In this document: positions 1-5,905 of the stretch, in pieces
Layout: the number at the start of each line of letters is the position of its first letter
How positions within the stretch are numbered: position 1 is the first letter of the stretch
Assembly: GCA_017442735.1 (NCBI GenBank)
Contig: JAFRZE010000021.1
Coordinates: 1 to 64,000 of the forward strand
Reading direction: 5' to 3'
DNA from: Bacillota bacterium
Lineage (GTDB): Bacteria > Bacillota > Clostridia > Lachnospirales > Bianqueaceae
Length of the DNA: 64,000 nt
The notes under the pieces: model-generated
Told to the model about the DNA's origin: nothing
The model's input: only the letters and a program-made list of their open reading frames with translations
Databases searched by the model: none
Made by a program: the position numbers and the translations under genes

Positions 1-1
1 C

Positions 2-61
2 TTTCGTGCGGACGCGAAGTCCAAGGAGGCATCCGTCCAAACCAATGCCACTACATTCTAA
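2..61 (+). CDS. possible C-terminal tail of an upstream gene (partial)
   Basis: An open frame enters from the left edge and stops with TAA at 59-61, giving about 19 residues rich in Ala, Lys, Asp, Glu and Thr, as in an exposed C-terminal tail. Codon choice (GCG, GAC, AAG, GAG) resembles the neighbouring genes. Nothing identifies the protein, and a frame this short is weak evidence. The other two forward frames look less coding-like. Between here and the transporter there is only a weak imperfect hairpin (about 89-112) and no clear terminator. Confidence 0.3.
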   Translation, partial: FRADAKSKEASVQTNATTF

Positions 62-3203: not shown

Positions 3204-4580
3204 ATGTCTATCAACAACATTCCGTTCAAAACCTATCTTGATGAATCCGAGATGCCGAAGACCTGGTACAATCTGAGAGCCGATATGAAAAACAAACCGG
3301 CTCCGCTGCTGAACCCCGGAACCCTTCAGCCCATGAAAGCCGAAGAACTGGCCGGCGTTTTCTGCGATGATCTGATCGCGCAGGAACTGGACAACACGAC
3401 TCCGTTCTTTGAGATCCCCGAAGAGATTCGCACCATGTACAAAATGTACCGTCCGTCCCCGCTCTGCCGTGCGTACCGTCTGGAAGAAGCGCTGGGGACA
3501 CCGGCAAAAATCTATTACAAATTTGAAGGCAACAATACTTCCGGTTCCCATAAGCTGAACTCCGCGCTGGCTCAGGCCTATTACGCGAAGAAGCAGGGAC
3601 TCAAAGGCGTCACGACCGAGACCGGTGCCGGTCAGTGGGGTACCGCCCTTGCCATGGCCTGCGCGTTCTTCGGTCTGGACCTGAAGGTCTTCATGGTCAA
3701 AGTTTCCTATGAGCAGAAACCGTTCCGTCGCGAAGTTATGCGCACCTATGGCGCGCAGGTGACTCCTTCTCCCAGTATGACGACTCAGATCGGTCAGAAG
3801 ATCCTGGCCGAGCATCCCGGCACGACCGGTTCACTCGGCTGTGCCATCTCCGAAGCGGTCGAAGTGGCAGTCGGAACGGAAGGTTATCGTTATGTGCTCG
3901 GCAGCGTGCTGAACCAGGTACTGCTGCATCAGTCAGTCATCGGTCTGGAAACCAAGACCGCGCTGGATAAACTGGGCGAGAAGGCAGATATCATTATCGG
4001 ATGTGCCGGAGGCGGCTCGAACCTCGGCGGTCTGATCGCTCCTTTCATGGGCCAGAAACTGCGTGGGGAAGAGGACTACCGCATTATCGCCGTTGAACCC
4101 GCTTCCTGTCCGAGCTTCACCCGCGGCGTCTACGCCTACGATTTCTGTGACACAGGTATGGTCTGCCCTCTGGCCAAGATGTACACCCTTGGCGCGGACT
4201 TCATTCCCGCTCCGAACCACGCCGGCGGTCTTCGCTACCACGGCATGAGCCCGATCCTTTCCCAGCTCTACGACGATGGACTGATGGAAGCTGTCAGCGT
4301 CCCGCAGACCAGTGTATTTGAAGCGGCTGAACAGTTCGCCCGCATCGAAGGTATCCTGCCGGCTCCGGAAAGCTCTCACGCGATCCGCGTCGCGATCGAT
4401 GAAGCGCTCAAATGCAAGGAAACCGGCGAGGAGAAGACGATTGTCTTCGGTCTCACCGGCACCGGTTACTTCGATATGGTCGCTTATGAAAAATTCCATG
4501 AGGATCAGATGGACGACTACATCCCGACGGATGAAGAACTGGCTGTCTATCGTGCCAAACTTCCGAAAGTCGATGCCTGA
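3204..4580 (+). CDS. trpB: tryptophan synthase beta-like protein TrpB2 type
   Basis: A 458-residue PLP enzyme of the TrpB2 branch, which joins indole and serine (or phosphoserine) to make tryptophan. The N-terminus (YLDESEMPKTWYNLRADM) is the extension typical of TrpB2 and absent from TrpB1, and length exceeds TrpB1 (about 400). The PLP lysine is K117 in SGSHKLNS, and the phosphate-binding glycine loop is GCAGGGSNLGG near residue 265. ATG at 3204 follows GGAGG (3191-3195). No trpA, trpC or other pathway gene is next to it, which suggests use of free indole or coupling to genes elsewhere. The Trp T-box upstream ties it to tryptophan supply. TrpB2 assignment is by sequence character, not alignment. 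Confidence 0.93.
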   Translation: MSINNIPFKTYLDESEMPKTWYNLRADMKNKPAPLLNPGTLQPMKAEELAGVFCDDLIAQELDNTTPFFEIPEEIRTMYKMYRPSPLCRAYRLEEALGTPAKIYYKFEGNNTSGSHKLNSALAQAYYAKKQGLKGVTTETGAGQWGTALAMACAFFGLDLKVFMVKVSYEQKPFRREVMRTYGAQVTPSPSMTTQIGQKILAEHPGTTGSLGCAISEAVEVAVGTEGYRYVLGSVLNQVLLHQSVIGLETKTALDKLGEKADIIIGCAGGGSNLGGLIAPFMGQKLRGEEDYRIIAVEPASCPSFTRGVYAYDFCDTGMVCPLAKMYTLGADFIPAPNHAGGLRYHGMSPILSQLYDDGLMEAVSVPQTSVFEAAEQFARIEGILPAPESSHAIRVAIDEALKCKETGEEKTIVFGLTGTGYFDMVAYEKFHEDQMDDYIPTDEELAVYRAKLPKVDA

Positions 4581-4587
4581 AGTACAC

Positions 4588-4842
4588 CTAGCTATCTCCG
4601 GAGACTACCATAGCAAGACCAGGGTATTTTTGATTTACACCTTGCTACTGTCATAGCAAGGTATATCTAAAAAGAAAGGCGACCTTGCTATCTTCAGAGT
4701 GATTGATAGCAAGGTCAATCTGATTTTAAGAAGAATCTTGCTACGCTGGTAGCAAGGTGTAGTGCTTTTTTGAATGAATCTTGTCATAGACGGCGATAAA
4801 AATAGCAAGATGCCTGCTGTTTCAGAAGGAATCTTGCTATTT
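4588..4842. repeat. array of five inverted repeats sharing the heptamer CTTGCTA/TAGCAAG
   Basis: The gap between the convergent trpB2 and oxidoreductase genes holds nine exact copies of CTTGCTA or its complement (starts 4611, 4641, 4654, 4684, 4707, 4737, 4750, 4803, 4833). They form hairpins: 4588-4595/4610-4617 (one mismatch), 4639-4647/4654-4662 (9 bp), 4681-4692/4705-4716 (12 bp), 4737-4744/4749-4756 (8 bp, 4-nt loop) and 4800-4811/4831-4842 (12 bp). Loops and outer arm bases differ, so only the core is shared. A partial copy is ATCTTG at 4778-4783. No coding frame or good terminator T-tract is obvious except a T run at 4765-4771. I see nothing else in 4843-4903. Confidence 0.85.
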
Positions 4843-4903: not shown

Positions 4904-5905
4904 TTAAAGCAGGATCTCCTTACCGATCACACCGGAACGGACGATGGCGTCGATCACCTGGTTGGAGAGACGGGCGTCTTTTACGTGAACATAGTCAGTC
5001 GTATCCTGCTCGATCGCGTCGTAGAACTTGCGGATCAGGCGGCCGTGCGAGGAGCCATAGTAGAACTTGCTGCCCTCAAGAGCTTTGTCTTCCACGATCA
5101 GTTTTCTCTCGCCGCTCTCATCCAGTTGATAGAGCTTGCGGCTGTCTATCTGGAAGATCGCCTTTTCCATGCGGATCTCCAGGAAGGGTCCGGCGTTGTA
5201 GCTGTTGGCCAGGGTAGCGAAGAATACGCCGCGGGCGCCGTTTTCAAAGTCGAGTTTCGCGACCGCGGTGTCCTCAACATCGATCGCCAGATCCAGCAGA
5301 TTCATACTCACGCCTTTGACCGACCTGACCGGTCCGCAGACAAGTCCCATCAGATCGATCAGGTGGATCGCCTGGTTGATCATGCATCCGCCGCCGGCAA
5401 GCTTGAAGTCGCCGCGCCAGGTCCCGTTGTTATAGTACTGCTGATCACGCTGCCAGGGATTGGCGGCGAAGGCGCCGAGGATCTTCCCGTATTCGCCGCT
5501 TCCGACGAGCTCGCGAAGCTTAATGGATGTGTCGTTGAAACGGTTTTGGAAGCAGATGCCTATTTTCAGTTCCGGATGGGCGTCCTCGACTGCGATGAAC
5601 TGTTCGAGTTCATAGGCGTCCCGTGCGGCCGGCTTTTCACAGAAGACATGTACGCCATGATCCGCGAAGAACTTGCTCACGGGATAATGAAGATAGTGGG
5701 GCAGACAGATGTGCGCGACATCCGGATGCTCTTTTTCGTAAAGATCTTTATAATCTGTGTAAAAATGTACAGGATCGGGCAGGCCCGGCTTCTTTGCCGG
5801 ATCGATATCGCATACCGCGACGAGCCGGACATCTTCCATTCCCAAAAGTACGGGGATATGGATCTGAGAGATCACGCCGCATCCGATCACACAGGCTTTC
5901 AGCAT
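4904..5905 (-). CDS. Gfo/Idh/MocA family oxidoreductase
   Basis: A 333-residue NAD(P)-dependent sugar or polyol dehydrogenase-like protein. The N-terminal Rossmann fold opens with KACVIGCGVISQIHIPVL; the family's EKP motif is present in CEKPAARDAYELEQF (about residues 94-108), and the catalytic-domain signature is GGGCMINQAIHLIDL (about 170-184), with the conserved His-Leu-x-Asp. Length is typical. The start ATG is 15 bases after the sugar isomerase gene on the same strand, so the two form an operon. The pair resembles inositol or keto-sugar catabolic modules, but substrate cannot be assigned. Confidence 0.9.
   Translation of the reverse strand: MLKACVIGCGVISQIHIPVLLGMEDVRLVAVCDIDPAKKPGLPDPVHFYTDYKDLYEKEHPDVAHICLPHYLHYPVSKFFADHGVHVFCEKPAARDAYELEQFIAVEDAHPELKIGICFQNRFNDTSIKLRELVGSGEYGKILGAFAANPWQRDQQYYNNGTWRGDFKLAGGGCMINQAIHLIDLMGLVCGPVRSVKGVSMNLLDLAIDVEDTAVAKLDFENGARGVFFATLANSYNAGPFLEIRMEKAIFQIDSRKLYQLDESGERKLIVEDKALEGSKFYYGSSHGRLIRKFYDAIEQDTTDYVHVKDARLSNQVIDAIVRSGVIGKEILL

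Follow-up and report, generated by a model that had tools for sequence, protein, structure and literature searches.

Phased heptamer arrays and an adjoining nuclease-like gene: an apparently new genetic element in two parts from bacteria of the gut and rumen

The window, the first 64,000 nucleotides of contig JAFRZE010000021.1 (assembly GCA_017442735.1) from a Bacillota bacterium of the family Bianqueaceae, carries a repeat array between the 3' ends of a trpB-like and an oxidoreductase-like gene (Table 1). A reading made from the letters alone (the sequence-only reading) had described this gap as convergent and as holding nine copies of the heptamer CTTGCTA or its complement TAGCAAG, and both statements hold: the 64-kb window contains nine exact copies, all of them inside 4611-4839, whereas whole-window shuffles gave a mean of 4.2 copies scattered across the 64 kb. 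The same reading took the heptamers as five hairpins. The inverted heptamers are real, but the hairpins represent only one possible pairing, and the unit that is invariant across species has its two heptamers separated by N22/23. In this register the array resolves into five dyad units of 37 bp on the pattern TAGCAAG-N23-CTTGCTA, each centred on an A/T tract. The linkers between them run 6, 16, 6 and 16 bp, and the unit centres are 43, 53, 43 and 53 bp apart.

Table 1. Features of the window array, its flanks and the neighboring gene-adjacent array. Positions are those of the window unless contig C12 is indicated.
Feature	Position	Strand	Remarks
Contig end	1..20	.	20 bp exact match (reverse complement) to contig C12
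trpB-like gene	3204..4580	+	Left flank; stop codon 8 bp before array start
Whole array	4588..4839	.	Decayed half-site CTAGCTA (4588-4594) and five dyad units
Unit 1	4611..4647	.	TAGCAAG-N23-CTTGCTA
Unit 2	4654..4690	.	Past 6-bp linker
Unit 3	4707..4743	.	Past 16-bp linker
Unit 4	4750..4786	.	Past 6-bp linker; right half-site at 4780 decayed to CTTGTCA
Unit 5	4803..4839	.	Past 16-bp linker
Oxidoreductase-like gene	4904..5905	-	Right flank; convergent with trpB-like gene
Partner gene of the same genome	C12:346-1119		Outside window, beyond left edge
Gene-adjacent TAGCAAG array	C12:1141-1422		Outside window; partner gene stop 22 bp earlier

Three features extend the description beyond the sequence-only reading: a genome-wide family of arrays, the occurrence of other heptamers in congeners, and a partner gene for a nuclease-like protein just outside the window. 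The source genome (G000) contains 20 arrays of the window register, and it has 89 exact CTTGCTA-N6..36-TAGCAAG pairs, the reversed pattern that served as control giving 2. About 17 arrays in this register occur in G006 (RGIG8018), a congener from a water-buffalo rumen assembly, which also provided the sole match to a four-heptamer stretch of the window array in a search of 84,980 species with one genome per species. The earlier suggestion of a REP-like, dispersed intergenic element in which the core is kept while the flanks change, to be sought in relatives, was in this way borne out, and the core is indeed not a copy of any described one. In both genomes the arrays are placed mostly at gene 3' ends; among the 19 arrays of G000 with both flanks called, 12 are flanked by convergent genes and one by divergent genes, and in other genomes 10 of 16 such arrays are convergent. 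The 20 arrays of G000 are confined to 10 of its 83 contigs, often 20-40 kb apart, which hints at regional chromosomal clustering.

The geometry of the window array is found with different heptamers in G003, G004 and G005. The trpB ortholog of G004 is likewise followed by an array, with the core TACTGCC; TACATCC occurs in a single array in G005, and TCGAGGA in 96 units in G003. The unit measures 36-37 bp throughout the congener arrays, linkers are about 5-6, 14-16, 24-27 or 36 bp, and arrays comprise 3-9 dyad units.

Unit-centre spacings in 16 array families cluster at 41-43, 50-54, 61-64 or 72-75 bp, and spacings of 84-85 bp occur in another family, more distantly related; these values correspond to 4 to 8 helical turns. 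The phasing of 37 spacing modes reached a vector length R of 0.82 at 10.5 bp (best period 10.6 bp); an R as extreme never arose in 100,000 simulations with uniform draws. When the bacterial families were considered separately, R was 0.81 for 22 non-redundant modes (f1) and 0.84 for 15 modes (f6). Spacings of this kind are expected where proteins line up along a single face of the double helix. Sequence conservation follows the same units. In six orthologous arrays of G000 and G006, 476 of 483 heptamer positions are identical (98.6%) as compared with 879 of 1147 spacer positions (76.6%; p=9e-36), and the flanks of these arrays are 86.2% identical. In G003 most arrays run to six units, spaced 50/51/63/72/62 bp in one or the other orientation, with all heptamers kept, and the mean identity of their spacers is 64%. 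Selection acts on the heptamers. At the dyad centre 98-99% of bases are A/T, and an A4/T4 tract is present in 91% of the units (n=98). Decayed arrays are under-counted because detection used exact heptamers, a bias that affects the comparison within orthologous arrays to a lesser extent. One array of G003 (L305 2507-2891) carries a seventh, decayed unit 51 bp past the usual six, with the helical phase retained.

These data bear on the proposal, also raised in the sequence-only reading, that the array is a structured small RNA, a terminator or an mRNA 3'-end element. Its predicted folding is strong (z -6.9) and three terminator-like matches were obtained, both of which inverted repeats give anyway. 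The compensatory changes that such a structure would call for were looked for beside the heptamers and none rose above the independence level: complementarity was close to that expected for independent positions in 40 N6, 47 N16 and 98 N23 spans. Besides, there is no Rfam match at the gathering score and the spacings track the DNA helical repeat. The RNA reading was dropped for want of covariation and is now hardly credible; the lack of excess pairing beside the heptamers, together with the helical-repeat spacings, indicates protein sites on double-stranded DNA.

A candidate for such a protein is encoded next to the arrays. An unnamed protein family of ~260 amino acids adjoins the arrays of G004 and G005, and a profile search detected this family in all 19 genomes of the bacterial family to which the window belongs, in several copies each; across the order, 50 of 295 genomes have it, nearly all of them from two bacterial families. 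Linkage was scored with a fixed scan, in which three or more units had to occur within about 1.5 kb of the gene locus to count as an array. Arrays were nearby at 19 of 44 gene loci as compared with 7 of 264 random windows (p=6e-13), five of these seven being clear arrays themselves, and no array was seen by this strict scan beside the remaining 25 gene copies. The linkage was repeated in a second bacterial family (f6), where most of the fetched gene loci have arrays, among them all 4 gene loci of genome G265. Arrays adjoining different gene copies have mostly different heptamers, a copy often standing right beside an array of its own heptamer, and every dispersed class of heptamer can be traced back to a single member of the partner family.

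In the source genome the partner gene and its own array lie ~0.3 to 1.4 kb past the left edge of the window, to which contig C12 is joined by its 20-bp overlap, and the same gene order is observed in G006 (locus L065, where the protein has 257 residues). Only one of the 20 arrays is adjacent to the gene, and the pattern of dispersed copies referring to one gene is likewise found in G003 and G004. Other arrangements also occur at family genes: a TGTACAC array with atypical unit lengths overlaps the 5' end of the reading frame at L258 2059-2278 (G003), this heptamer being found again at L156 18955-19210 in the same genome, and at L294 (family f6) GTCCGTG arrays flank the gene on both sides.

No family in Pfam or NCBIfam matches the partner protein. 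In 26 of 26 members a C-terminal stretch of ~110 residues matches the tail of the PADLOC candidates PDC-S68/S69 (best E 1e-32), and a weak profile match to T7 endonuclease I, over an RSxxE...PDF segment, is below significance (E 0.15). E187, D217 and E232, the acidic residues of the predicted active site, are invariant in the 26 proteins, as is H233; the (D/E)XK motif lacks its canonical K, and that position is not conserved as K. The single-sequence AF2 model, at pLDDT 43, cannot serve as a fold; in the secondary structure that it predicts, the N-terminal part runs helix, three strands, helix, and the order of helices and strands in the C-terminal part is compatible with PD-(D/E)XK. Judged from these sequence features, the C-terminal domain would be PD-(D/E)XK nuclease-like and is predicted to cleave DNA. 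The dN/dS between G000 and G006 is 0.083 for the whole gene and similar in both halves, so that selection acts on the protein as well as on the heptamers. As for recognition, of 105 pairs the three with the closest N-terminal regions also rank as the top three in half-site similarity, which suggests that the heptamer is read by the N-terminal region; a Mantel test of half-site against protein distance gave no overall correlation (p=0.8).

The array and the gene for the putative DNA-binding nuclease probably form a two-part element, in which the arrays are cooperative, phased binding sites and their upkeep and dispersal are driven by the protein. One part would be the ~260-aa protein, with a putative heptamer-reading N-terminal region and the C-terminal PD-(D/E)XK nuclease-like domain; the other would be the array, with 3-9 dyad units in which the heptamer of that protein occurs twice in inverted orientation; a unit is ~36-37 bp from end to end in the family of the window, and the units lie whole helical turns apart. 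Protein molecules would occupy the half-sites on one DNA face and assemble cooperatively. One array would remain beside the gene while array-only copies spread to gene 3' ends, making the element mobile, and at these dispersed sites heptamers and spacings would be kept by selection or by continuing activity of the protein. The window array may be such a dispersed array-only copy, ~5 kb from its gene.

This organization is close to that of REP/BIME repeats and their RAYT (TnpA_REP) proteins, whose gene lies directly beside its own REP repeats and which leave dispersed copies consisting only of repeats (PMC2817692). The likeness includes short palindromic intergenic units, alternating arrays, many copies, a species-specific core, a gene adjoining its own repeats and the dispersal of repeat-only copies. 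The array element works like REP/RAYT, yet it has neither a Y1/HUH partner gene nor the stem covariation nor the GTAG head of these systems: the partner is of PD-(D/E)XK type, the units are helically phased on duplex DNA, and no GTAG head is constant across species (half-sites in G000 are often gTAG, other families having TACTGCC, TCGAGGA, TACATCC, etc.). The source genome does encode one Y1_Tnp-like protein, and the alternation of palindromic units and the two linker lengths recall a BIME, so a conventional RAYT-driven family had to be considered. The HUH motif of this protein reads NTAH, the first His being lost, the contig of its gene (C18) has no array, and a different gene adjoins the arrays. 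With no array nearby and the motif degenerate, the Y1 protein was dropped as partner, and a RAYT-driven origin is very improbable. The gene itself (L062 6399-7253) adjoins an ftsY-like gene, and divergent relatives of its product occur in most genomes of the bacterial family of the window. The best reading of the arrays is that they are dispersed and maintained in a REP-like manner without a RAYT.

Orthologous arrays in G000 and G006 speak against the reading as a two-part element, since they show long residence, which is also compatible with a host function. Since arrays have been retained at orthologous positions, a role in chromosome organization ranks first among the rivals. The arrays would then be chromosome-organizing or transcription-insulating sites bound by a domesticated, possibly non-cutting nucleoid protein, those in convergent gaps constraining supercoils or anchoring a domain. 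The preference for convergent gaps, the restriction to few contigs, the retention of heptamers and exact spacings while spacers diverge, and purifying selection on the partner protein all agree with this role. It is nevertheless unlikely, given that the active-site residues are invariant and that several paralogs with different heptamers occur per genome, in some cases (G005) with a single array of a class, which is more like independent elements.

Candidate defence proteins have to be considered as well. PDC-S68/PDC-S69 and HEAT_CxxC_PDDEXK proteins (PADLOC) have a homologous C-terminal nuclease-like domain, and the match in all 26 members together with several orthogonal copies per genome would suit an anti-phage or self/non-self system, in which a nuclease held inactive or guided by the chromosomal arrays attacks invading DNA. 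The PDC-S68 proteins have ~1200 residues and no arrays in the loci seen, whereas the partner protein has ~260, differs in its N-terminal region and has a cognate array; its match to the PDC-S68 model is confined to the final ~110 residues of that model, the full ~1200-aa architecture being absent. A defence function also leaves the exact helical spacing unexplained and is considered improbable. Plasmids, phages and viral contigs contain relatives of the C-terminal domain only, and the loci of the viral-contig relatives (~1200 aa, the size of PDC-S68) had no arrays; a phage or plasmid origin was rejected on these two grounds.

Further systems share single traits with the two-part element. The ends of Tn7-type transposons are bound by TnsB at several spaced sites, and the system includes the nuclease TnsA. 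Multiple spaced putative sites for an element-encoded protein and a restriction-enzyme-like nuclease are common to both; unlike Tn7, the element has no paired ends or cargo, and its putative binding region and nuclease domain reside on one small protein. T7 endonuclease I, similar over the weakly matching segment mentioned above, has no array. CRISPR has direct repeats of one orientation with unique spacers, whereas the repeats described here are 7-bp alternating inversions, and the same spacers are met again in other units and loci. A limited look turned up neither target-site duplications nor empty sites, and a literature search, with preprints and most subscription journals outside its scope, returned nothing matching an array-nuclease element. 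The chances are evenly balanced that this is an undescribed mobile or domesticated class, in which a single DNA-binding PD-(D/E)XK nuclease disperses and maintains its own phased arrays and has diversified into many orthogonal heptamer specificities per genome.

The partner proteins constitute an unannotated, multi-copy family of anaerobic gut and rumen bacteria linked to cognate DNA sites that can be read from the genome, and many natural protein-heptamer pairs are available for testing. If the protein binds as predicted, gene and arrays would make up a REP-like system that is new and relies on an unrelated enzyme. They would also supply orthogonal DNA-binding specificities ready for use and allow a direct test of the way in which nucleases cause repeats to spread or persist in bacterial chromosomes.

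Repeats of other types were encountered in the same genomes. A second array type with the core TGCTTT and spacings of 42 and 61 bp (L064 537-680, G006) shares its contig with a TAGCAAG array. In G003, TGTCAC-core arrays of equal unit length (L156 6029-6315 and L161 5765-6085) lie beside no fetched gene copy. Tandem hairpin repeats GACTAATGAGAAA..TTTCTCATTAGTC with a period of ~70 bp and a different geometry are present in G010 (L188 798-1060 and L190 50-200).
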